Source: Nitrosopumilus sp. (GTDB lineage: Archaea; Thermoproteota; Nitrososphaeria; Nitrososphaerales; Nitrosopumilaceae). From it: 64,000 nucleotides of DNA. The notes beneath the pieces were generated by a model. That model searched no databases. It was not told where the DNA came from and saw nothing but the letters and a program-made list of their open reading frames with translations. A program made the position numbers and the translations under genes. Numbering within the stretch: the stretch's first letter is position 1; every line of letters starts with the position of its first letter. The stretch is from assembly GCF_025698945.1 (NCBI RefSeq), contig NZ_JAILWM010000001.1, positions 310,001-374,000 of the forward strand, written 5' to 3'. Positions 41,935 through 63,000 of the stretch are shown one piece after another.

Positions 41935-42055
41935 GAAATACCTATATTGAAAAATTTATTTAAATTTATGCTGATTGGCTGAATGTTTGTTTAGTTTTCA
42001 TATGTAATTTTTGGTGTCATTTCAGATTTAATAGAAATGACTTTGGTTGTATTTT

Positions 42056-42283
42056 GTGGATGAAATAAAAGAACTGGTCTCAAAGGGCCAGAAGTCACTT
42101 GATGATGGAGATTTTAATGCAGCACTTGGTTATTTTGAGCAGGCATTGCTGCTAAATCAGGACGATCCTGACCTTTGGAACCACAAGGGTGTTGCATTGC
42201 GAAGTCTGGGAAGATATGAGGAATCAATGGAGTGCTTTAACAAGTCACTGGAAATTGATCCAAGGGATAAACATGCATCTTAA
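42056..42283 (+). CDS. Small TPR protein (75 aa)
   Basis: 75 residues: two TPR motifs, LDDGDFNAALGYFEQALLLN and LWNHKGVALRSLGRYEESME, followed by a capping helix. GTG 42056 is preferred because a GATTTAATA box lies about 25 bases upstream; TTG 42047 is the longer alternative. A protein-interaction module, last gene before the defence island. A related longer TPR protein is at 62503. Confidence 0.75.
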   Translation: MDEIKELVSKGQKSLDDGDFNAALGYFEQALLLNQDDPDLWNHKGVALRSLGRYEESMECFNKSLEIDPRDKHAS

Positions 42284-44753: not shown

Positions 44754-45017
44754 CTATAGATCAAAATTACAATTCATACAATATACTTGTCCATCGGCAG
44801 TTGTGTCCCTCATCTTTTTAGGATGATTGCAGTTAGGAATCAATTCTTTTCGAATAACTTCAAGATTTAAAATTATTGTTTTCTCTGAATGCAATAGTGC
44901 TTTTTCAACACCATAAGCATCATCAGAGTTTAGCCATTTATTTTGAAGCTCTTGGATTGTTTGTTTCTTTTGTCCAATCCACCAATCTATAATTTTGATT
45001 GCCTTTTGCACGGTCAT
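44754..45017 (-). CDS. Small protein with C-terminal zinc ribbon (87 aa)
   Basis: 87 residues. A helical N-terminal part (VQKAIKIIDWWIGQKKQTIQ, YGVEKALLHSEKTIILNLEV) is followed by PNCNHPKKMRDTTADGQV and YCMNCNFDL, ligands CxH and CxxC. It precedes the KAP-like NTPase on the same strand and may act with it. No family recognised. Confidence 0.65.
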   Translation of the reverse strand: MTVQKAIKIIDWWIGQKKQTIQELQNKWLNSDDAYGVEKALLHSEKTIILNLEVIRKELIPNCNHPKKMRDTTADGQVYCMNCNFDL

Positions 45018-45078: not shown

Positions 45079-45756
45079 TTATGATTTTTTCAGTTTGGAT
45101 ATTTGTTCATCAATATCTTTGATTTGAGCCTTGAGATCTTGTTCTTTTTGCTCATTTTCTGCAGCCATTTTATTAAATTCGGCAGCTTTTCTATTTACAA
45201 AATTTTGTATTGATAGAAGAATGCATTTCACTTCTTCCATTGCATTATTTATTCCATCATAATCTAAATGAATTTTTTTATCGCCATCATAAAGAAAAAC
45301 CCCTTCTTTCGTAATATCATAATCTTCATGTGCCAAAGAATTTCTGAAATTTACATAGAGTTTATCAAATAACATATCTTTGTAGGATTGTTCATATTTT
45401 ATCTCATTACAAATTTTTATGATTAGTGTTCCATATGTCGTTTTGTCATTAAATGAAATTTTTGAATCATCAAGTAACAATGACAAAAATACTTTAGATA
45501 GTTCCAAAGTTGAATTAACAATATTCATTGTATTCCAATACAAAAAAACCATTCGTTCATCAGAAGTAAGAATCTCTTGTTTTTCTGTAGATTGAGATAT
45601 TTTAACATAAGAACCAGATATGATCTTATAACGTTTCAAAAACTCCTTTATCTTTAGAGATTTTTTTGTAAATCGTTCATCATTAAACTGAAAAATATCG
45701 TGTTCTTCAAGCGATTTAAGAAAGTCATCAGTAATTTGTTCAACTGTTTGAGACAA
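45079..45756 (-). CDS. HEPN-like protein, possible RNase
   Basis: 225 residues. The helical middle ends with LYVNFRNSLAHEDYDIT, containing R-N-S-L-A-H, i.e. Rx4H, the catalytic signature of HEPN ribonucleases. A coiled-coil tail follows. HEPN proteins often serve as RNA-cleaving toxins in abortive-infection and toxin-antitoxin systems. It starts 3 bases after the HNH gene stop in the hsdR operon. The assignment rests on this motif and helical context only; no MNT antitoxin gene is adjacent. Confidence 0.6.
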   Translation of the reverse strand: MSQTVEQITDDFLKSLEEHDIFQFNDERFTKKSLKIKEFLKRYKIISGSYVKISQSTEKQEILTSDERMVFLYWNTMNIVNSTLELSKVFLSLLLDDSKISFNDKTTYGTLIIKICNEIKYEQSYKDMLFDKLYVNFRNSLAHEDYDITKEGVFLYDGDKKIHLDYDGINNAMEEVKCILLSIQNFVNRKAAEFNKMAAENEQKEQDLKAQIKDIDEQISKLKKS

Positions 45757-45759
45757 ATT

Positions 45760-45990
45760 TTATCTCCATTTTTTCTTATCCCATTGGTCTTTATTTCTAT
45801 GACATTTTAAACAAAGTATTCTTAGATTTGTAATACTGTTATCGGAAGGTATGCGATTGATATGATCCAAAGTCAAATTTTCAGTAGTTCGAATTCCTTC
45901 CTTATGACATTGTTCACAATATGCATTGAGGTATTTTAGAAGCGTTGTACGTGAAAATAATTTCTTTTTTGATTTCTTTTTTTGGTTCAT
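45760..45990 (-). CDS. HNH endonuclease (76 aa)
   Basis: 76 residues: YCEQCHKEGIRTTENLTLDH, then SITNLRILCLKCHRNKDQW. CxxC...LDHI...N...CLKCHRNK is a full HNH zinc-finger nuclease motif. A strongly basic N-terminus (NQKKKSKKKLF) would help DNA binding. Its start overlaps the end of the metalloprotease gene by 4 bases. It may be a nuclease of the defence island. Confidence 0.82.
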   Translation of the reverse strand: MNQKKKSKKKLFSRTTLLKYLNAYCEQCHKEGIRTTENLTLDHINRIPSDNSITNLRILCLKCHRNKDQWDKKKWR

Positions 45991-46538
45991 TTCTTTTTGA
46001 ACAATTCCTTAGAATGAAGTTCCAGCCAATTAATTTTGTCTTGAAATTTCTTATCATGAGAATACAACAAACTCCAAAATTTACTAGAATGGTTTCTAAT
46101 TTTCAAATGACACAATTCATGAATTATCACATAATCAATAATTCGTGGAGGAGTTTTCAATAGAACTTCATTAAGTGTGATTATTCCTGTTTTTCCAGCA
46201 CTTCCCCATCTCGATTTTAATTTCTTCACTACAACTTGTGATGGTTTGACGCCTATTTTTGAGGCTAATTTCCATGTTCTTCTCTCTAAATATTCAAGAG
46301 TCTTTGTTTTTGTTTTGACTCTCTTTCTATTTTTTTTATCTTGAAACTCTAATCTTTTTTTGAAGATCCATTCTTTCTTGTTTGTAACCATCTTTTTGAT
46401 TTCAGAATTTGTTTTTGATAACGGAGTCTGTACTTGAACGCCTTTAGAATCCACAATAATTTGTGATGTTTTTCTTCTCTTGCTTTTAGAAATAGTATAT
46501 GTTATACTGCTATTACCAAATCTAATTTTGTCTTTCAT
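45987..46538 (-). CDS. YgjP/SprT-like metalloprotease
   Basis: 183 residues. Zinc-peptidase motif YVIIHELCHLKIRNHSSKFW (HExxH, downstream His), preceded by KKLKSRWGSAGKTGIITLNE, typical of the YgjP (DUF45) family. Genes of this family are often linked to type I restriction genes, where their role is unclear. ATGA overlaps on both sides couple it to hsdR and the HNH gene. Confidence 0.88.
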   Translation of the reverse strand: MKDKIRFGNSSITYTISKSKRRKTSQIIVDSKGVQVQTPLSKTNSEIKKMVTNKKEWIFKKRLEFQDKKNRKRVKTKTKTLEYLERRTWKLASKIGVKPSQVVVKKLKSRWGSAGKTGIITLNEVLLKTPPRIIDYVIIHELCHLKIRNHSSKFWSLLYSHDKKFQDKINWLELHSKELFKKK

Positions 46539-49534
46539 AAATCATTCTTTGCCAATGTGATTACTGTATCAGATAATTCATTAATTTTATCATCTTCAAA
46601 TTTAGCACTACTTAGAACTTCATACAGTACTGCTCGTATGTTTTTCTCCACACTTGTTTTATTTTTCCAGCCTACAAGTTCTGTCTCGCTTTTTATTTTT
46701 GAGAAAATTTCTTTTGTTAGTTCTATGGAATCCTTTCTGTCTTTGTCTTTGTTTAGCTCACCATACAATGCAAATTCAAATGGAGTTGCCTCATAATCAC
46801 CAAATACCTTCTTTCGCTCTTCTTCCTCAGATAGGGCCTTGTTGTAAATTTCCTCATATAATGCAGGATTTGTAAAATAGCCAGCATTCTTTCTTCTTCT
46901 CTCGGTTTCCTCATCAATAATTCTCTGTAATCGCTCACGCAAACTCTCATAGAAGGCAGGATTATTGGGAGTGAGCTCATCAATTACAGATATTGCCCTT
47001 GTTTTGATTAGTGCAGCCTTTGCTTTGTCGCTTTTTACATCCTTTTTGACAAATGCCATGAAATTCTCATATGATATCTCCATTAGGTTTACCAATCCAG
47101 TTACATGCAATGATCGAATATGATCATCAATTAACTGCTGAATCTTTTTGGCATATGGGCGTGTACTAGGCTTGACACCATCGTATCTGGTGCGTATTAG
47201 TTGCCTTGCCTCACTTGCAAACTTGAAATCAGCAAGATATGGGTCTGCTGTCTTATCAGGCATTACAGCATCAAGGGCCTTTGAGAACATTTTAAAATCA
47301 TATTCGTATTTTTCTCTCAAGTCAACTGGTTCAAATTTTTCAATTATACTATCATAGTCTTTCTTGTCAATTCCTTCAAAGTATGCCATAACATCAAGAT
47401 GTCGTTCATGTAGTTCATGTAACAAATCTTCTAGAGGGTCTAGTGCTCCTTCAATGTCTTGTTCTTCAAACATCTCAAGTGCTTTTTGTAGTTCTTTGGT
47501 GATTCCAGAATAGTCTATTATCAATCCATATGTCTTTGCTTCATCGTATGGACGATTAACTCTTGCAATTGCTTGAAGCAAGTTATGCTCTCGTATTCCC
47601 TTATCTAAATACAAGACTTGACATACTGGAACATCATATCCTACAAGTAACATGTCTACTACAATGAGAATCTTTGTTGGATCTTCTGAACTTTTGAATT
47701 TCTCAGACTCTGCTTCTCGTTGTTCTGGAGTAAGAAAATATTCATCCCAGCTCAAGTCATCTTTTCCTGTCTCACCAAGACTTGATGTCATAATTATTTT
47801 TGATACAGGTGCGTTTAGCTTGTCTAGTTCCCTCTTGTACAACACAGCTGCTTCTCTTGATGTTGCAACTATCATTGCCTTGTATCCATTTGGTTCAATG
47901 TGTGATGTATAGTGATTTACAATATCTAGTGAGATTCTCTTTATTCTTGAAGGTGCTTCTGCAATTTTGCCCTTTGTAACATATTGTTTTTTTAGTTTTT
48001 CTTGAAGTTCAGAAGTAATGGTAGGATCTTTTCCTATCACTCTATCAAAGACTTGCTCTATGGTATCGCCGCCTTCAACAAATAATTCTGGAAGTCTTCC
48101 TTCATATCGAATTGGTAGTGTTGCCCCATCTGCTTGTGATTCTCTAAACCCATACTTGTCAAGCATTGGTCCAAAGACTCGGTATGTACTTCTGTCATTC
48201 TTATCAATTGGCGTGCCTGAAAAGCCAAAGAATACAGCATTAGGCATGGCTACACGCATCTGTTCGGCATTTACCTTGAATTGAGAGCGATGAGCCTCAT
48301 CTACAAGACAGATTACCTTCTCATCAGTATGAATTTCTGTTCCTGCTGAGAACTTGTCAATTATAGTCATGATAGTCTTGCCTCTAGGGTTTTGCAATAA
48401 TTCTCCTAGATGTTTACCACTTTTTGCTCTGATAGGAGTTGGAAATCCGCAACTCTTGAATGTCTCATGAATTTGTTTGTCTAGTTGTTTTCTATCTGTA
48501 ATAATCACAATAGGAGGATTTCCAAATTTATACATCAGTTGTGATGCAAACCAAAGCATTGAGAGGGATTTGCCAGAACCTTGAGTATGCCATATAACAC
48601 CACCCTTGTCTTTAATTTCTTCAGACTCTTGTAGTCTTGAAATAGATTTTGTAACTGCTCGGAATTGCTGATGTTTAGCAATTTTCTTTATTTTTTGTCC
48701 ATTAACTGTTTCATAAATTACAAAGTTTTGTAAGTGATTAAGTAAATTTTGTTTTGATAGTAATCCCGCAATAATTATTTCTTGTTCTCTTGTTCTACCA
48801 TTGCACATCTCTTTGACATCTTCTTCAGTGAAGGGATAAGCTTCTGCCCATCTCGCATAATAGTTGATATGGGATTGTAATGTTCCAACTCTAGCTAATG
48901 TACCACATGTTGCAATCATACAATGGTTATAAAAGAATAATTTTTCGTATCCTTGTCCAGGATTTTGATAGTGTGTAAAGTTTTTCTCATAAGCTTGCTC
49001 TATGGGTCTTGGAATTGTTGGATCCTTGCATTCTATAATTACAAGAGGAATTCCATTTACAAAAATCATAACATCAGGAAATATTGGATTTTTAAATCCT
49101 TGAACTTTGAATTGATTTGTTACAACAAAGTCATTGTTATCCACATTTTCAAAATCAAAAACTTTTAGAATCTTTTGTTCAGGACCATCACCAAAGTTTT
49201 GTGTAACTACTACAGGTTCTAATCCTCCTGTTTGGGATAATCCAATTAGTTTTGCTCGAAGTTTTTCATTAGTATCAACTGGTGGCAAGTGATGTGGATA
49301 TCTGTCTTCTTCTAGTTGAGAAATCGCATCACGAATTCCATCATCATCAACTTCAGGATTTAGTCGTTTTAGTGCCTCTTCTAGCCTATCATAGAGTATA
49401 ACTTCACCATATTTTCTTCGTGATTTGTTGAGTTCTGCCTGAGTTTTGTACTCATAACCCATTGCTACTAGTTGTTCCAGTGCTGGAAGTTCAGACTCAG
49501 ATGCCTCTTTACCTGCACCAATATCAAAGTTCAT
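46535..49534 (-). CDS. hsdR: Type I restriction endonuclease subunit HsdR
   Basis: 999 residues. The nuclease domain near 150-175 shows FPDVMIFVNGIPLVIIECKD (PD...ExK). The translocase motor has HTQGSGKSLSMLWF (Walker A), CLVDEAHRSQF (DEAH), FFGFSGTPIDKND (motif III) and AIARVNRPYDEAKT (VI). It translocates and cuts unmodified DNA in complex with HsdM and HsdS. Start at ATG 49534. First gene of the leftward operon; hsdM and two hsdS lie about 1.5-5 kb to its right, beyond a Shedu-like gene. Confidence 0.95.
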   Translation of the reverse strand: MNFDIGAGKEASESELPALEQLVAMGYEYKTQAELNKSRRKYGEVILYDRLEEALKRLNPEVDDDGIRDAISQLEEDRYPHHLPPVDTNEKLRAKLIGLSQTGGLEPVVVTQNFGDGPEQKILKVFDFENVDNNDFVVTNQFKVQGFKNPIFPDVMIFVNGIPLVIIECKDPTIPRPIEQAYEKNFTHYQNPGQGYEKLFFYNHCMIATCGTLARVGTLQSHINYYARWAEAYPFTEEDVKEMCNGRTREQEIIIAGLLSKQNLLNHLQNFVIYETVNGQKIKKIAKHQQFRAVTKSISRLQESEEIKDKGGVIWHTQGSGKSLSMLWFASQLMYKFGNPPIVIITDRKQLDKQIHETFKSCGFPTPIRAKSGKHLGELLQNPRGKTIMTIIDKFSAGTEIHTDEKVICLVDEAHRSQFKVNAEQMRVAMPNAVFFGFSGTPIDKNDRSTYRVFGPMLDKYGFRESQADGATLPIRYEGRLPELFVEGGDTIEQVFDRVIGKDPTITSELQEKLKKQYVTKGKIAEAPSRIKRISLDIVNHYTSHIEPNGYKAMIVATSREAAVLYKRELDKLNAPVSKIIMTSSLGETGKDDLSWDEYFLTPEQREAESEKFKSSEDPTKILIVVDMLLVGYDVPVCQVLYLDKGIREHNLLQAIARVNRPYDEAKTYGLIIDYSGITKELQKALEMFEEQDIEGALDPLEDLLHELHERHLDVMAYFEGIDKKDYDSIIEKFEPVDLREKYEYDFKMFSKALDAVMPDKTADPYLADFKFASEARQLIRTRYDGVKPSTRPYAKKIQQLIDDHIRSLHVTGLVNLMEISYENFMAFVKKDVKSDKAKAALIKTRAISVIDELTPNNPAFYESLRERLQRIIDEETERRRKNAGYFTNPALYEEIYNKALSEEEERKKVFGDYEATPFEFALYGELNKDKDRKDSIELTKEIFSKIKSETELVGWKNKTSVEKNIRAVLYEVLSSAKFEDDKINELSDTVITLAKNDL

Positions 49535-49667: not shown

Positions 49668-51047
49668 TTGAGATATTATTACGATGTAACTACGGTTCCA
49701 TCATCAAAAGAGAAAGCTACCAATGAATTAAAGGAGGAATGGGAGACTGAAGCTGAAAAACTTGCAAAAATCATTAAAAAGAAGATTCCAGATGTAAAGT
49801 ATTTTTGGACACGAAGAGATACCTTAGGATTTGTCTTTACAGATTTTGAACCAAAAGATGAAAAAAAGATAATTGGTGCAGGGGCCACAGGTTTAAGGAA
49901 AAAAATACAAGAGGATTATGATTTTGTGTTATTAAGTGGAAATGTAACAGGTAAACATAGTGAAATTAAAAGTGAAGGAAAAAAAGGAATTAAAATCAAT
50001 ATAGAGTATTTTAACAACATATTCAAAAAAGCTGGCAATACCGAAAAAGTTGTAGAATTATTTTTATCAAAACCTGTTTTAGATGAATTCGAAGAAGATG
50101 CCATTAAAAAAATCATCCATGATGATCCTGAAAAACTAAAACAATACATGGATTTTGAATCAACTTTAGATACACTACGATTACATGGTGCTGATAAACC
50201 AGAAGAATTTTCAAAAATGATGCAAGAAATGTTGCAGTTTTCTAAAGAGCATGAAATTCAAAATTATAAAGATTTTCAAGAGATTTTAGAAAAAGCAGTA
50301 AGATTTTTTGAATTATATAAAATTAGTAATCCAGATGATTTTACTAATGTTGCAAATTCACTTATAGATATTTTAGAAAAATACGATATTGGTACTGTTA
50401 ACACTGAAAAATTTCTTTCTGCAATGTTAAAACAAATTAAAACACAAAAAATCAGTAGTGTTGATGATCTTGAAAAACTCATAGAAATTACAAAAGCAAC
50501 TGAAAGAAGTATAATAAATGGGCATACATATTTTGAAGAAATATTAGAAGAATTCAGAAAGAAAATTGACACTGATATAGCAGAGATTGAAATCAGAAAT
50601 TTTGTTTTTAAACATATATGGTTATTAGATTTTCGATATTATGGATATAGAAAACTAAAAGAGGAGCATCTTGAAATTGGAAACACAGATTTAACTTTGT
50701 ATGATGATCAATTAGGATTAAACACGATAATCATTAATGAATTCAAACGACCGGATGAACCAACTGTCACACAAAATGACAGGCCAAACAAAGATGCAGT
50801 GCTATCGAAAGTAGGGAGAGCAATATCTCAAACAATTCACTATATGGAAGAAATTAAAGATAAGAAAAACCATGTTGAAGGATATGTAATAATTGGGAGA
50901 AGAAAAGAGTCAAAAGATTATTTTTTGACAAAATTTAACGAATATCTACATGGGATTAAAATCAGAACATTTGATGATCTGTATGACGATGCCAAAGCCA
51001 CCATTGAAACATTCAAACAATTTTCAAAAGTAGAAAAACCTGACTAA
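49668..51047 (+). CDS. Shedu-like (DUF4263-type) nuclease
   Basis: 459 residues from TTG 49668, supported by a TTTAATATGATATAAAA box about 25 bases upstream. The N-terminal 300 residues are helical; the C-terminal domain (about 310-440) reads RNFVFKHIWLLDFRYYGYRK, then GNTDLTLYDDQL, IIINEFKRPDEP, SKVGRAISQTIHYMEEI and VEGYVIIGR. The D...E-x-K order and the final layout match the PD-(D/E)XK core of Shedu (SduA) immune nucleases. Located between hsdR and hsdS, read the other way from both. The Shedu call is from pattern. Confidence 0.68.
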   Translation: MRYYYDVTTVPSSKEKATNELKEEWETEAEKLAKIIKKKIPDVKYFWTRRDTLGFVFTDFEPKDEKKIIGAGATGLRKKIQEDYDFVLLSGNVTGKHSEIKSEGKKGIKINIEYFNNIFKKAGNTEKVVELFLSKPVLDEFEEDAIKKIIHDDPEKLKQYMDFESTLDTLRLHGADKPEEFSKMMQEMLQFSKEHEIQNYKDFQEILEKAVRFFELYKISNPDDFTNVANSLIDILEKYDIGTVNTEKFLSAMLKQIKTQKISSVDDLEKLIEITKATERSIINGHTYFEEILEEFRKKIDTDIAEIEIRNFVFKHIWLLDFRYYGYRKLKEEHLEIGNTDLTLYDDQLGLNTIIINEFKRPDEPTVTQNDRPNKDAVLSKVGRAISQTIHYMEEIKDKKNHVEGYVIIGRRKESKDYFLTKFNEYLHGIKIRTFDDLYDDAKATIETFKQFSKVEKPD

Positions 51048-51099: not shown

Positions 51100-52428
51100 T
51101 CATATCTTTACTCTGATTTGACCTGTTAGGAGTTTCTGCATAAGTCTTTTCTTGAGGGATTCAAGACTAGTCTTTTTGCCTTCTAATTCATTAATTTTTG
51201 AATCAATATTGGAAAGAATGGAAGCAATTTTTTGCTGTTCTGATATTTCAGGATGAGGAAATAAAATTTCCAAAATTTTTTTTGTGGAAGTATGAATTAC
51301 CCCTGTTCCTGCAGATGTTCTTTTAATTTGTTTTTTATAGAAACTGGAATTTAGAAATTGATTAAGATATTTTTTATTTATTTTTTCTTTTAACAACACT
51401 TTTGCTATACGTTGGTTGTGAAGAATTGTATAATCACTCTTTAGAATTATCGCATTACCTAGAATCACTCCATCTCGTGTAAGATCAGTCATCACAATTA
51501 ACAAATCATTATTTTCTAAAATAAATCCTGATGGAATAGGACCCTCATAAAATGTAGTATTTCTGTCTTCAAAATATAATTTCTTATCCTTATGAAAATT
51601 TCCAGGGGTGATTACCACTTTATCGGAGCTAGTGACAAAATAATCACTTTTAAATGCAAAACCATTTTTGAGTTCAATTAAATCAGATAATGGAACAAAA
51701 TACCATTCTTCAGGAATTTCAATCTCTTTTCCAAACAACCATTTCACTTTCTTGAATTTCTTGTGACCAATTCCTTTAGTCAGTAATGTCTGCATCAGAC
51801 CTTTCTTAAGCTGCTTCGTATGTTCTATGGTTTTATCATATGATGAAATCAAATCATCGACATTACTTAATGTGGATGCAATTTTTTCTTGTTCAGGAAT
51901 AGGAGGTAAGAATATCAAAAACTCTTTCCAGGATCCAACGTTTACAACTTGTTGAGCCCCACCTGCTTGGTACATTGTAACCTGTTTTGATATTAATTTT
52001 GAATTTGCTAGATACCCAAGAAATTCAGATACAAATTTTTTATTTTTCCTTGTGATAATTACAGATGCACAATTAATCCCATCATGTTCCTTTCTGACCA
52101 CACTTGTTCTTCCAGGGTAGCCAACTCTCATGGTAACCAAGTCACCAAGCCAAATTCTAGTTGGCTCTAATAGACGGTTATTTTCTTCCGTGATAAAATC
52201 CACCCCATCCAATACAATCCCATTTTCTGTTACATGTTTACCTGTGATCATTGGAACTGTTCCATGATCATCAAAGTACGTTGAAGGATTTATGACTAAA
52301 CCTACTGATACTTTTGTAAGTTCTTTAATTTTTTTTAATTCCCATTCTTCAGGAATTTCTTCATATTTTCCAAAAAGTGACTTTACTAGCTTGTATCCAG
52401 GTCTAGGTTTACGCACAAATTCCTTCAA
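51100..52428 (-). CDS. hsdS: Type I specificity subunit HsdS (two target domains)
   Basis: 442 residues, TTG start. Two target-recognition domains, each preceded by a GYKLVKSLFGKYEEIPEEW or KKVKWLFGKEIEIPEEW block and ending in a helix repeat (PIPEQEKIASTLSNVDDLI; ISEQQKIASILSNIDSKI). The C-terminus is LMQKLLTGQIRVKI. It determines the DNA site for HsdM/HsdR. It is divergent from hsdM, with 62 bases between, instead of following it. Confidence 0.92.
   Translation of the reverse strand: MKEFVRKPRPGYKLVKSLFGKYEEIPEEWELKKIKELTKVSVGLVINPSTYFDDHGTVPMITGKHVTENGIVLDGVDFITEENNRLLEPTRIWLGDLVTMRVGYPGRTSVVRKEHDGINCASVIITRKNKKFVSEFLGYLANSKLISKQVTMYQAGGAQQVVNVGSWKEFLIFLPPIPEQEKIASTLSNVDDLISSYDKTIEHTKQLKKGLMQTLLTKGIGHKKFKKVKWLFGKEIEIPEEWYFVPLSDLIELKNGFAFKSDYFVTSSDKVVITPGNFHKDKKLYFEDRNTTFYEGPIPSGFILENNDLLIVMTDLTRDGVILGNAIILKSDYTILHNQRIAKVLLKEKINKKYLNQFLNSSFYKKQIKRTSAGTGVIHTSTKKILEILFPHPEISEQQKIASILSNIDSKINELEGKKTSLESLKKRLMQKLLTGQIRVKI
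51106..51141 (-). repeat. Inverted-repeat partner at the end of hsdS copy 1
   Basis: Read on the minus strand, ATGCAGAAACTCCTAACAGG and the following 16 bases match 54661-54696 in 30 of 36 positions. Most differences are at third codon positions, so part of the match reflects protein conservation (MQKLLTGQIRVK). See the finding on possible inversion. Confidence 0.6.
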
Positions 52429-52490
52429 ATTTCCTTTGTATTAAGCCATTTTACGAATCAGGATCAAAAGAAACGCTATATGATACTCAT

Positions 52491-53990
52491 ATGATGAATT
52501 TCTTATTGTCTGATAAAGTATCACTAGAATTTCTTAAAGGTCATTTATGGAAGGCAGCTGATATTCTCAGAGGATCACTTGATGCTTCGGACTATAGACA
52601 ACCAGTAATGACTTTATTATTTCTTAAAAGACTAAACGATAGATTTGAAGAAAATATTGAGGTGTTAATCAAGAAAGGAAAATCTGAAAAAGAAGCAAAA
52701 AAAGAGTTTCATCATGACTTCTACATCCCAGATGATGCCAGATGGGAGAATCTTTCTGGTGTTAGAAGCAAGGTGGGAGAAGCTATAGATAAAATTTGTA
52801 AATTAATTGAGGAAAAAAATCCAAAACTTGAAGGTGTTTTAACCAATACAAAATATGCAGATCCTAGAAAATATCCAGACAATGAACTTGCAGAACTAAT
52901 TTCTCATTTTAATTCGCCAAGATTAAGAAATTCAGATTTAGAAAAAGAAGATATTTTTGGTGATGCATATGAATATCTCTTAGAAAAATTTGCAGATGCA
53001 ACAAAGAAGAAAGGAGGAGAATTTTTTACACCAAGAGAAGTTGTGCAATTATTAGTAAACATTACACATCCAAAAGAAGGGATGAAGATTTGTGATCCTA
53101 CATGTGGTTCTGGAGGTATGTTAATCATGTCAAGAAAAGAAGTTGAAAAACACAAAGGAAATCCCAGAGATTTAGTTTTAGATGGTCAAGAATCAAACTA
53201 TGGAAACTTGGCAATGTGTAAAATGAACATGGTATTACACGGAATTGTTGATTTCAACATTACATATGGAGACACACTTGCAAATCCGCAATTAGTGAAA
53301 GGAGGAAAACTAATCACATATGATAGAGTACTAGCTAATTTCCCATTTTCAATGGATTGGGACAATAAAGGAGCTGAAAAAGATCCATATAACAGATTCA
53401 GATTCGGAGTTCCACCTGCAAAAGACAAAGCAGATTTTGCATTCATTCAACATATGTATGCTCAACTTAATGACAAAGGACAAGCTGCAATTATCTGCTC
53501 ACAAGGAGTGCTGTTTAGAGGAAGTGTTGAACAAAAAATACGAGAAGGACTGATTGCAGAGGATGCCATTGAGGCAATTATTGCAATTCCAGAGAAACTC
53601 TTCTTTGGAACAGGCATTCCTGCCTGTGTTTTGGTATTAAACAAGAACAAACCAAAGGCAAGAAAAGACAAGATAATTTTCATTTATGGTGCCAAAGACT
53701 ACAAAGAAGGAAAGAACAGAAACACACTACGTGAAGAAGATATTAAAAAAATTGTAAAGGCATTTGATGATTTCAAGGATATTGACAGATACTGCCATGT
53801 TGCAGATCTAGAGGAGCTCAAAGAAAACGAGTACAATCTCAATGTTCCAAGATATGTCGATATCTCTGAACCTGAAGAAGAGATTGATATTCAGGCAACA
53901 ATAGACGAACTCAAGAAACTAGACAAGGAAAGAGACGAGCTTGAACTAAAAGTCAAACAAGATCTCAAGGCATTAGGATTCAAGATTTAG
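52491..53990 (+). CDS. hsdM: Type I DNA methyltransferase subunit HsdM
   Basis: 499 residues. N-terminal helical domain (LWKAADILRGSLDASDYRQ), then GGEFFTPREVVQLLVNITHP, SAM-binding motif I CDPTCGSGGML, and the catalytic tetrapeptide NFPF in DRVLANFPFSMDWD, where NPPF/Y is usual. It methylates adenine at N6 in sites set by HsdS. Start at either of two adjacent ATGs (52491/52494). One base separates it from the half-length hsdS downstream. Confidence 0.94.
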   Translation: MMNFLLSDKVSLEFLKGHLWKAADILRGSLDASDYRQPVMTLLFLKRLNDRFEENIEVLIKKGKSEKEAKKEFHHDFYIPDDARWENLSGVRSKVGEAIDKICKLIEEKNPKLEGVLTNTKYADPRKYPDNELAELISHFNSPRLRNSDLEKEDIFGDAYEYLLEKFADATKKKGGEFFTPREVVQLLVNITHPKEGMKICDPTCGSGGMLIMSRKEVEKHKGNPRDLVLDGQESNYGNLAMCKMNMVLHGIVDFNITYGDTLANPQLVKGGKLITYDRVLANFPFSMDWDNKGAEKDPYNRFRFGVPPAKDKADFAFIQHMYAQLNDKGQAAIICSQGVLFRGSVEQKIREGLIAEDAIEAIIAIPEKLFFGTGIPACVLVLNKNKPKARKDKIIFIYGAKDYKEGKNRNTLREEDIKKIVKAFDDFKDIDRYCHVADLEELKENEYNLNVPRYVDISEPEEEIDIQATIDELKKLDKERDELELKVKQDLKALGFKI

Positions 53991-53991
53991 A

Positions 53992-54702
53992 TTGAAAAAA
54001 CCAAAACCCGGATACAAGTTTGTAGAAGGTCTTTTCGGAAAAAAAGAGGAAATTCCTGAAGATTGGGATTGGCAAAGAATTGGAGAAAATTCAATTCTTA
54101 AAGGTAGAATAGGATGGCAGGGGTTAACAACAGCTGAATATCGTGATGAAGGAGAGTTTTATCTTGTTACTGGAACTGATTTTAAAAATGGAAGAATAGA
54201 TTGGGAAAATTGCGTATATATTGATAAGGAAAGATATGATCAAGACACAAATATTCAATTGAAAAAAGGAGACGTCTTAGTCACTAAAGATGGAACAATA
54301 GGGAAGATTGCATTCATAGATAAGATTCCTATCCCATCAACGTTAAACACAGGAGTATTTGTCATTCGTCCATTAAATAAAAAATACCATTCATTATTTT
54401 TATTTTACATTCTTTATTCAAACTATTTTACAATATTTTTGAATAGATTAAAAGGAGGATCCACAATTAACCATCTTTATCAAAAAGATTTTGTAAATTT
54501 TCATTTTCCAATACCTCCCATTAAAGAACAAGAAAAAATTACAAATATTTTATCAAATATTGATTCATTAATAGATATTCAGAAAAAAATCATAGGAGTT
54601 AATTTAAAATTCCCAAACTTACAAAATGAAAAAAGTTTAGAAATGATAAAAGTGGGATTAATGCAAAAACTCCTAACGGGCCAAATTAGAGTCAAAGTTT
54701 AG
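53992..54702 (+). CDS. hsdS: Half-length HsdS (one target domain)
   Basis: 236 residues, TTG start one base after hsdM. It has the same opening block as the large HsdS (PKPGYKFVEGLFGKKEEIPED), one recognition domain (LKGRIGWQGLTTAEYRDEGE...), one helix repeat (PIKEQEKITNILSNIDSLI) and the same end, LMQKLLTGQIRVKV. Half HsdS proteins can dimerise to make a functional subunit with a palindromic target. Alternatively it is a cassette for recombination with the inverted copy at 51100. Confidence 0.9.
   Translation: MKKPKPGYKFVEGLFGKKEEIPEDWDWQRIGENSILKGRIGWQGLTTAEYRDEGEFYLVTGTDFKNGRIDWENCVYIDKERYDQDTNIQLKKGDVLVTKDGTIGKIAFIDKIPIPSTLNTGVFVIRPLNKKYHSLFLFYILYSNYFTIFLNRLKGGSTINHLYQKDFVNFHFPIPPIKEQEKITNILSNIDSLIDIQKKIIGVNLKFPNLQNEKSLEMIKVGLMQKLLTGQIRVKV
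54661..54696 (+). repeat. Inverted-repeat partner at the end of hsdS copy 2
   Basis: ATGCAAAAACTCCTAACGGG and the next 16 bases form a 30/36 match, in inverted orientation, to 51106-51141. The pair spans 3.5 kb containing hsdM. Confidence 0.6.
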
Positions 54703-58718: not shown

Positions 58719-61394
58719 ATGGTATTTCCACTCCAAAACACATTCATGAAATTTTGCTCAACTTGTGACACTAAACTAACTCAGAACTTTGAAGATCTTG
58801 GAGGTCCTGGAATTTGTCCCAAATGCAATCCAGAGATGGTTACTCCAAAAAGACCAACGTATGGCATGAACTATACTGGAAGAACAAAACCTTGCTCCAA
58901 AGGATGCGGAGCTGAAATCTACTGGGATGACCAGTTCAAATCAGACAGTGGAAAGTTTATCCCAATTGATTCGCGGACTGATGAGCCACACCAGTGCAAT
59001 GGTCCGGAAGAGTCTGGCACATACTATCCAGACGAGATAAAGAAATTTGCAAAGAAAAAAGAGACTGTACAAAACAAGATTCCAATCCCTGAAGAAATAC
59101 TATTTGATATCTCTAAAATTCCAAAATCGCTAGCTGAAGATGATTATATCCTTCGTGAAATAATTCAGGGGCACAAGGAGGAATCCCTGGCAATAGTCCA
59201 CTATGAGAATATGGTCTCTGACGAGCCTGAAAAGATTCCAACTGAGACCCTAAGTGACGTGTTATCTGAGGATATCCTAAAGGGAATCAAAAAGTACGGC
59301 TTTACTGGACTTCTTTCATTTCAAGATGAATCAATTCGCTCAATCCTTGCTGGAAATAATTCTATAATTTCAGCTCCTACTGGTTCTGGAAAGACTGAAG
59401 CATTTAGTATCCCGATTTTGCAAAAAATATCCCAGGAAACAAAACCTGGTGTCTTTGCATTGCTTGTCTATCCACTTAATGCACTAATTGATGATCAGGT
59501 ATCTAAAATCTCAAAACTCATTGATGCATGTGGACTGCAAAACAAAGTTGGTGTCTTTTCAATTCATGGGGGACAAAGCTCAGAATACAAAGATTTGATA
59601 GTTGAGGATGCTGCAAAAAAATCCCTAATCATTGCAACAAACTTTGATTTTATCAACTATCACTTGATTCTACAAGACAAGAAATGGAATGAGTTATTCA
59701 AAAATGCAAAAATAATTGTAATGGATGAGGCGCACTCTTACACCAGCTTTCATGGCTCTAATGTGTATCATGTGCTAAATAGAATGAAGCGATACATGGG
59801 AGATGTTCAGTTTGTTGGCTCTTCAGCTACACTTGACAACTCTAGAGAGTTTTTCTCAAACATGTTTGATTTGCCCCAAGAGTCATTTTCATACATCAAA
59901 AGTGATACGGGAAGAAAAAAGAACATGCACATGTTATTTGTAATGCCGCGAAAGTTTGGACAGAGAACTACAATGGAGATGTTAGCATCAATTTGTTACA
60001 AGAATAATTCAACACAACTAATCTTTAGCAACTCACACAATGATTCGGAATTTCTTGCATCAAATGTAGAGTCTGCAAATGAGGGAATACGAATTCAGAT
60101 TCACAGGGGAGGTCTTGACCAAAACAATAGAAAACTCTACGAATCTCAGATGAAGGCAAGTGAACTTGATGCACTATCTTGTACCCCTACACTTGAGCTG
60201 GGAATTGATATTGGGCATGTAGATGTGGTGATTTCAGCCTTCAAAAACGAGTATGACTCCTTTGTGCAGAGAATTGGTAGGGCTGGCCGTATGGGCCAGA
60301 AATCATATGCCCTCTGTGTCTTTGATCCTGATGATGCAGCATGCCACTATTTTGCACGCCACATTGACCAGTATCTCTCACAAGACCATGTAATTCCAAT
60401 TAACAAGAAAAATCCCATCATTTCAGAGAAGCACACTGAATCAATAGAGATTGAAGCAGAATCTTCCCAGACCTCTGAGAAATCTCAGTTCTTTGATTTT
60501 GCAAACAGTGTCAATCTTCGAGGAGCATCAGGTGAGATTGCAATTTATCTCAACTCTAAAAAAATTGGAACACGTAATGTGCCAGTTGGTTACTATCAAT
60601 TACATCAAAATGCAATCTATCACTTTAACAAGCAAAACTATGAGGTAATCTCTTTGAGAAAATCTCAAAACGGTGCAAGAGCATATCTGAGAAGATCCTA
60701 TGAGAATCAGAAAAGAACAATGCCAATAGTTAGAACTTCAATTCTGCAGACATCAGAGCGAAATGCAATACACAGAGAAATAGTTTCAGGTTCTAGGAAA
60801 CTATCAATACGTTATGGAATAATTGAGCTTAGCAGAACCATTACTGGCTATCTCAAAGGAAACTATAATGACTCAGCAGATACATTCCAGACATTTAATG
60901 GAAACAATGTTTCGTCTTGGAGGAACTTTAACTGGAAGTCAAAGCACTCTTCAGTTAGTATTGTAATTCCTTCAGAGTTTTTGGCAAAGTCATATTCAGA
61001 TTCAAAAAGCCAGATGTCCATAGACCCTAGAATTCACACCATTTCTCATGTGTTGATTAATGCTGCTAAAATTATCACAAAATCTGAATCAAGTGATATT
61101 GATGTATACTATGATAATGGCATTATCTATCTGTATGACAATTCTTCTGATGGTTTCAATGGTTGCAGCAAGATAATCTATGAGGAGTTTGAAAAGATTC
61201 TCAAGACCTGTCATTCCCTGCTATCTGATTGTGATTGTCCAACTGATCCTAAACAGAAAAAACTAGTCTCCCAAGGGGAAAGGTGGGGTGGATGCCCAAA
61301 ATGTACATTTACAAATAATTATTGTCAGACAAAAAACAAGGAACTATCAAAAAAAGATGCAATGGATTTTTTTACAATTTTTTTGAAAAATTAA
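58719..61394 (+). CDS. DEAD/DEAH helicase, Hrq1/MrfA-like, with zinc modules
   Basis: 891 residues. An N-terminal zinc part (FCSTCDTKL, GICPKCNPE, CSKGCGAEIYW) precedes the helicase: IISAPTGSGKTEAFSIPIL (Walker A), IVMDEAHSYTSF (DEAH), VGSSATLDN, CTPTLELGIDIG, and QRIGRAGRMGQKSYAL (VI). The C-terminal region ends with a cysteine cluster (DCDCPTDP, GGCPKCTFTNNYC) like the four-Cys site of MrfA/DUF1998 helicases. Those proteins repair crosslinked DNA. ATG 58719 or 58746 could start it. Confidence 0.88.
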   Translation: MVFPLQNTFMKFCSTCDTKLTQNFEDLGGPGICPKCNPEMVTPKRPTYGMNYTGRTKPCSKGCGAEIYWDDQFKSDSGKFIPIDSRTDEPHQCNGPEESGTYYPDEIKKFAKKKETVQNKIPIPEEILFDISKIPKSLAEDDYILREIIQGHKEESLAIVHYENMVSDEPEKIPTETLSDVLSEDILKGIKKYGFTGLLSFQDESIRSILAGNNSIISAPTGSGKTEAFSIPILQKISQETKPGVFALLVYPLNALIDDQVSKISKLIDACGLQNKVGVFSIHGGQSSEYKDLIVEDAAKKSLIIATNFDFINYHLILQDKKWNELFKNAKIIVMDEAHSYTSFHGSNVYHVLNRMKRYMGDVQFVGSSATLDNSREFFSNMFDLPQESFSYIKSDTGRKKNMHMLFVMPRKFGQRTTMEMLASICYKNNSTQLIFSNSHNDSEFLASNVESANEGIRIQIHRGGLDQNNRKLYESQMKASELDALSCTPTLELGIDIGHVDVVISAFKNEYDSFVQRIGRAGRMGQKSYALCVFDPDDAACHYFARHIDQYLSQDHVIPINKKNPIISEKHTESIEIEAESSQTSEKSQFFDFANSVNLRGASGEIAIYLNSKKIGTRNVPVGYYQLHQNAIYHFNKQNYEVISLRKSQNGARAYLRRSYENQKRTMPIVRTSILQTSERNAIHREIVSGSRKLSIRYGIIELSRTITGYLKGNYNDSADTFQTFNGNNVSSWRNFNWKSKHSSVSIVIPSEFLAKSYSDSKSQMSIDPRIHTISHVLINAAKIITKSESSDIDVYYDNGIIYLYDNSSDGFNGCSKIIYEEFEKILKTCHSLLSDCDCPTDPKQKKLVSQGERWGGCPKCTFTNNYCQTKNKELSKKDAMDFFTIFLKN

Positions 61395-62502: not shown

Positions 62503-63000
62503 TTGGATGAGAGATTAGTCAGTATGCTTGCTCAAGCTTTTGAATACGCCGAAGATGGAAATTACGATAAAGCACTCAAGCTATATGATGATGTCTTAAA
62601 AGAAGATCCAAAAAATGTCTCAGCACTAATTGACAAGGGTGCAACACTGCAAAACATGGGACGAGTCAAACTTGCTATTCGCTCATATGACAAGGCCTTA
62701 TCAGTAAAACCAAATCATCTGGATGCATTGCTAAACAAGGGGGCAGCATTACACTCTAATCAAAAGTACCAAGAGGCAATTGATTGCTATGATGCTGCAT
62801 TGAAAATTGATAAAAAATGTGCAATGGCACTAGCTTACAAGGGATTATCCCTAGGTGAGATGGGGGAGTTGCAAAAAGCAATCACTCATTTCAAAAAGGC
62901 ATTATCCATTGACAAGCACTATGACTTGGCACATATCTCAAAAGAGATTGCTCAGGAATTATTGAAATCCATAAACCAGAAAAAATCTAAAATACAGTAA
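62503..63000 (+). CDS. TPR-repeat protein (165 aa)
   Basis: 165 residues, TTG start. Four TPR-type helix pairs: YAEDGNYDKALKLYDDVLKE, LQNMGRVKLAIRSYDKALSV, LHSNQKYQEAIDCYDAALKI, LGEMGELQKAITHFKKALSI. Protein-interaction scaffold; partner unknown. Its 3' end overlaps the convergent C2H2 gene by 14 bases. Confidence 0.88.
   Translation: MDERLVSMLAQAFEYAEDGNYDKALKLYDDVLKEDPKNVSALIDKGATLQNMGRVKLAIRSYDKALSVKPNHLDALLNKGAALHSNQKYQEAIDCYDAALKIDKKCAMALAYKGLSLGEMGELQKAITHFKKALSIDKHYDLAHISKEIAQELLKSINQKKSKIQ

Follow-up and report, generated by a model that had tools for sequence, protein, structure and literature searches.

A type I restriction operon in a Nitrosopumilus-like archaeon with YgjP, HNH and putative HEPN-like genes downstream of hsdR

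At least 16 clades of HEPN proteins have been linked to restriction-modification (R-M) systems (PMC3710099). Release of a latent RNase upon failure of restriction has been shown for one of these proteins, PrrC, and has been proposed generally for the HEPN genes located in R-M operons (PMC3710099). An older open question about type I systems is why so many of them have a YgjP metallopeptidase directly after hsdR. For elements that carry HsdM, HsdS and HsdR, a review of thaumarchaeal mobile elements includes an M48 peptidase in its list of genes (PMC6563490). Here, we describe a locus in which the two themes meet. It was found in a window of 64,000 nucleotides (the whole stretch of DNA analyzed, positions 310,001 to 374,000 of contig NZ_JAILWM010000001.1, assembly GCF_025698945.1) from the 1.75-Mb genome of a Nitrosopumilus-like marine ammonia-oxidizing archaeon, and in it hsdR is followed by genes for a YgjP-like metallopeptidase, a small HNH nuclease and a 225-residue protein that is probably HEPN-like (Table 1). 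The reading that we favor, with a probability of about 0.45, is that of a type I restriction system that has recruited a probably active HEPN-like RNase as a PrrC-like second line. If true, the two-line defense by restriction and HEPN, known mainly from bacteria, would extend to abundant marine ammonia-oxidizing archaea, and a first function would be available for a HEPN-like protein family of Nitrosopumilaceae in which most chromosomal copies no longer have the active site.

The leftward gene chain and its 225-residue protein

A preliminary description of this DNA had placed four leftward open reading frames (hsdR, ygjP, HNH and the 225-residue gene) in a chain held together by ATGA overlaps or a 3-base gap. 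All four were recovered on the minus strand and the junctions were as described, with a 4-bp ATGA overlap at both hsdR/ygjP and ygjP/HNH and a gap of 3 bp between the HNH and the 225-residue genes (TAA stop of the former, AAT, TTG start of the latter). From this spacing, we infer that the four genes are co-transcribed. The last two also share one reading frame across the single TAA, and a single broken gene was considered and rejected, since the HEPN-like relatives begin at the corresponding residue and two separate genes are the simpler explanation. The HNH protein scored 30 bits against a cutoff of 21.4 (PF01844) with the pattern CxxC-DHI-N-CxxCH and could act either as a second DNA nuclease or as a structural partner. 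Because two more leftward genes come next, one for an 87-residue protein after 61 bp and one for a 739-residue AAA+ ATPase after a further 68 bp, the unit may be longer than four genes, with these two possibly belonging to it.

The assignment of the 225-residue protein as probably HEPN-like comes from its predicted fold, motif and conserved residues, despite the lack of a family match (see below). Two confident AlphaFold models (pLDDT of 89.8 and 92.5) predict a pair of long helices followed by an insert that is itself helical, then a short helix with RNSLAH at its end, a beta stretch of three strands and, last, another long helix. RNSLAH is an Rx4H motif (R138-N139-S-L-A-H143), located at the end of helix 135-142 and with a polar residue following the R. 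According to Anantharaman et al. 2013, the HEPN motif ends helix 3, an insert lies between helices 2 and 3, and helix 2 carries an acidic residue (PMC3710099). All three traits are seen in the model, where E85 is located in helix 65-92; this position is E in all five deep branches of the family and D or E in 26 of its 36 members. In both fold searches, the HEPN domain of sacsin ranked first among the PDB structures, although below significance, and YutE and HepT came further down the list. The strongest point for a HEPN-like identity is the conservation among four members outside the chromosomal group (the window protein and those of L027, L029 and L239). At a mutual identity of 20 to 25%, only 13 of 168 columns are invariant between them, among which are E85, R138, N139 and H143, the HEPN catalytic set.

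According to the favored reading, the operon would have recruited the small HNH nuclease and the HEPN-like protein downstream of ygjP. The latter would probably be a metal-independent RNase working as a dimer, with R138 and H143 and with E85 nearby. It would be made together with HsdR and held harmless, putatively silenced by HsdR itself, and once restriction failed or was overwhelmed, it would be released, RNA would be cut and growth would stop. The role of backup killing arm suggested for it earlier would agree with what Anantharaman et al. 2013 proposed for HEPN genes that belong to R-M operons (PMC3710099). YgjP would most likely be a local protease acting on HsdR or its complex and tuning restriction, similarly to the ClpXP-dependent restriction alleviation of Escherichia coli mentioned in PMC11109961.

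The hsdR-ygjP pair and the HEPN-like family

HsdR relatives were retrieved from the genome collection by using an alignment of six HsdRs; a scan with a single HsdR gave none. The survey yielded 80 hsdR loci, of which 64 retain at least 700 bases downstream of hsdR. In half of these (32/64), including archaea and bacteria, ygjP is found directly downstream, mostly at a spacing of -4 or -1, so that ygjP beside hsdR is indeed, as had been stated, a known arrangement, and hsdR-ygjP is a standard pair. In the Nitrosopumilus relatives, the pair comes after hsdM-hsdS. The YgjP of the window reached 125.6 bits against a cutoff of 26 (PF01863) and has an intact HELCH (residues 141 to 145, the HExxH zinc motif). 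When aligned with five longer relatives, it is missing approximately 50 internal residues between its two halves, and this short form recurs in two other loci (L146 and L154). Other defense genes follow ygjP in single bacterial cases, namely, a DUF5655 gene plus a Piwi-domain gene in L185 (13033-16695, in the same direction as hsdR-ygjP) and a GmrSD_N gene in L209.

Relatives of the 225-residue protein were found at 20 to 28% identity in about one-third of the Nitrosopumilus-like genomes and in a few other Nitrosopumilaceae. Outside this family of archaea, none was found in 400 genomes of the class, nor did any turn up in the plasmid and viral collections. In the chromosomal group, 24 of the 29 members have lost the R or the H (24 of the 36 in the whole family) and five are intact. 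The motif, kept in the four divergent members, is therefore under selection in them and has decayed in the standalone version. Chromosomal copies are often convergent with a PD-(D/E)XK gene. The genome of the window (G000) has a second, standalone copy on contig 1 (627335-628009; L046, 8336-9013), whose motif has decayed to RDAISN. As for the divergent members, the L027 relative (G059 contig 230, 9541-11199), whose motif reads RNAIAH, has a tail-to-tail overlap with the 3' end of cas1 at the end of its contig, possibly within a casposon, and that of L029, with an intact motif, is located in what looks like an integrated element, which carries a tyrosine integrase gene (stretch L240, G032 contig 19, 1608-6303). 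This element also contains an unmatched 414-residue gene and adjoins a dihydroxy-acid dehydratase-like gene. For L239 and the five intact chromosomal members, no cas1, integrated-element or defense-island context was seen. The position of the window protein in the tree is unsure due to long branches.

We find the live and dead forms of this family a more interesting lead than the four-gene operon. They might represent an unrecognized HEPN RNase family of ammonia-oxidizing archaea, with an active, mobile form used in defense and a chromosomal form that is widespread and has a dead active site, the active form being wired here to a type I operon, possibly controlled by YgjP and assisted by HNH. 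In this full version, the idea is rather improbable.

Weighing of the alternatives

Several results weigh against a recruited RNase, beginning with the uniqueness of the locus. None of the 80 hsdR loci had a comparable HNH gene or the HEPN-like gene behind ygjP, and the same order was also absent from the Nitrosopumilus ygjP loci and from all the HEPN-like neighborhoods examined; for the two HsdR relatives of highest identity (73% and 65%), the sequence stops 56 and 182 bases past ygjP, before the next gene. The preliminary description was right in that the HNH and HEPN-like additions are not a standard set, as they follow hsdR-ygjP in no other genome searched. For the same reason, its proposal that the four genes form a layered-defense system finds no support in this sample, and the two additions look more like a local supplement to a defense of a known type than like an established new system. 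Besides, most relatives of the 225-residue protein are standalone, away from R-M genes, and the majority are without the motif. The protein also has no ATPase or other sensor domain, unlike PrrC. An arrangement unique among the searched genomes would suit chance neighbors as well, that is, the HNH and HEPN-like genes being separate cargo behind ygjP in a variable island, sharing its transcript and doing no joint work with restriction. The places where other HEPN-like members are found (standalone, by cas1 in L027 or in the tyrosine-integrase element), the unrelated defense genes after ygjP in L185 and L209 and an island crowded with unrelated defense-type genes point in the same direction. However, the junctions are too tight for a self-contained gene, equipped with a promoter, to have simply dropped in, and tightly coupled genes have usually been selected to be expressed together. 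We regard such a cohabitation as possible, with the odds somewhat against it. The 3-bp gap and the single frame across one TAA might also indicate that the HNH and HEPN-like genes are a two-gene unit of their own (a nuclease with its helical partner or a toxin with its inhibitor) that moved in as a pair, and operons that combine HEPN genes with those of HNH and ParB nucleases are on record (PMC3710099). Nevertheless, no second HNH/HEPN-like pair was found, although not every neighborhood of the HNH relatives was inspected, and the relatives of the two come from different places; we regard this origin as very unlikely.

The second set of adverse results concerns the nature of the 225-residue protein. 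It had no match in Pfam, PADLOC, NCBIfam or PDB sequences, and a search of the PDB sequences with the family profile gave chance matches only. Profile-profile comparison of the family with members of PF05168 and PF13643, controlled with reversed sequences and YgjP, was no better than the reversed controls. The fold matches were without significance (Foldseek E values of 0.09 to 0.10, TM scores of 0.31 to 0.47) and remained so after trimming the last helix and with a deeper alignment. The HEPN fold proposed earlier for this product thus gains from the AlphaFold layout, the best fold match and the motif and finds no HEPN family match by sequence or profile. The missing profile matches, the Foldseek E values above 0.09 and the loss of the R or H in most family members would all be compatible with another type of all-helical protein, such as a structural or RNA-binding adaptor, in which RNSLAH is incidental. 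Against this stand the retention of E85, R138, N139 and H143 by four divergent members that have no more than 13 columns in common, the location of these residues at the positions of the HEPN catalytic residues and the presence of a HEPN structure at the top of two independent fold searches. We therefore consider a non-HEPN protein unlikely.

The genomic island and comparison with described systems

The locus is part of a genomic island (Table 1). In six relatives, the two TPR genes at its edges are adjacent or no more than approximately 1 kb apart and the island is missing, so these ca. 20 kb are either an insertion in the lineage of the window or a loss in the others. Neither an integrase nor a flanking exact repeat of at least 11 bp was found, and the G+C content of the island shows no difference (0.326 versus 0.333).

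Table 1. Features of the island, with positions in the window
Feature	Position	Strand	Basis or remark
Genomic island, ca. 20 kb	42284-62500 (ends approximate)	.	between TPR genes 42047-42283 and 62503-63000
AAA+ ATPase, 739 aa	42466-44685	-	AAA_16 E=2e-5, under the curated cutoff
Protein of 87 aa with C-terminal CxxC pair	44754-45017	-	open reading frame
HEPN-like protein (probable), 225 aa, E85 / R138-N139-x3-H143	45079-45756	-	AlphaFold, fold search, conserved residues
Small HNH nuclease, 76 aa	45760-45990	-	PF01844 E=6e-7
YgjP-like metallopeptidase, short form, 183 aa	45987-46538	-	PF01863 E=4e-36
hsdR, type I restriction subunit, 999 aa	46535-49534	-	TIGR00348 E=1e-152, SWI2_SNF2, HSDR_N
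Shedu-like gene (SduA C-terminal nuclease domain)	49668-51047	+	PF14082 E=6e-9; PADLOC SduA E=7e-7
hsdS, 442 aa, two target-recognition domains	51100-52428	-	PF01420 twice
hsdM, 499 aa	52491-53990	+	PF02384 E=2e-107, TIGR00497
Half-size hsdS, 236 aa, one target-recognition domain	53992-54702	+	PF01420 once

In addition to the leftward chain, the island contains hsdM, two hsdS genes, a Shedu-like gene, the AAA+ ATPase and a helicase. With hsdS, hsdM and the half-size hsdS to the right of hsdR, the type I restriction set is complete by gene content, and the reading frames of hsdR, hsdM and hsdS are all intact. With hsdM lying between the full and the half-size hsdS, which are divergently oriented (51100-54702), the locus has the layout of a shuffling hsdS locus. 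However, the inverted repeat common to both (97 nt at 74%) is too diverged for recent switching, and phase-variable inversion was rejected in this sense. A similar divergent second hsdS was seen in L155. The Shedu-like gene is divergent from hsdR, and neither this gene nor that of the AAA+ protein, which has a hydrophobic insert near residues 160 to 210, has a counterpart in any other of 61 genomes. Relatives of the 87-residue protein are multicopy in some Nitrosopumilus-like genomes (G009 and G010), which suggests a mobile or repeated family. The helicase (58719-61394) is of the DEAD type with an MrfA-type Zn-binding domain and resembles those of several defense systems (SngC and BrxH).

Among the described systems, PrrC-PrrI offers the same combination of a HEPN RNase gene (for an anticodon nuclease) within a complete type I locus, of type Ic (PMC3710099). 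PrrC has a trigger-sensing ABC ATPase, whereas the 225-residue protein is without such a domain and no sequence similarity between them was detected; the window has a separate AAA+ gene two genes downstream, which is not an ABC ATPase by its matches. The R-M-linked HEPN families (AbiJ solos, AbiU2, DUF4145, ApeA and pEK499_p136) are also stand-alone HEPN genes in R-M operons, proposed to be latent RNases (PMC3710099), although the 225-residue protein matches none of their Pfam models. Its chromosomal paralogues in Nitrosopumilaceae have the same length and fold alignment at 20 to 28% identity but are standalone and mostly without the Rx4H motif. Shedu (SduA) has the C-terminal SduA domain in common with the Shedu-like gene, which in the window is embedded between hsdR and hsdS, outside the four-gene chain. 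Finally, the hsdM-hsdS-hsdR-ygjP operons of Nitrososphaerota and bacteria are alike in their HsdR (40 to 73% identity in the Nitrosopumilus loci) and in a YgjP that overlaps the hsdR stop. In contrast to them, the set in the window is split, with hsdM and the half-size hsdS running rightward, hsdS and hsdR leftward and the Shedu-like gene in between, and its hsdR is followed by a short YgjP and then by the HNH and HEPN-like genes.

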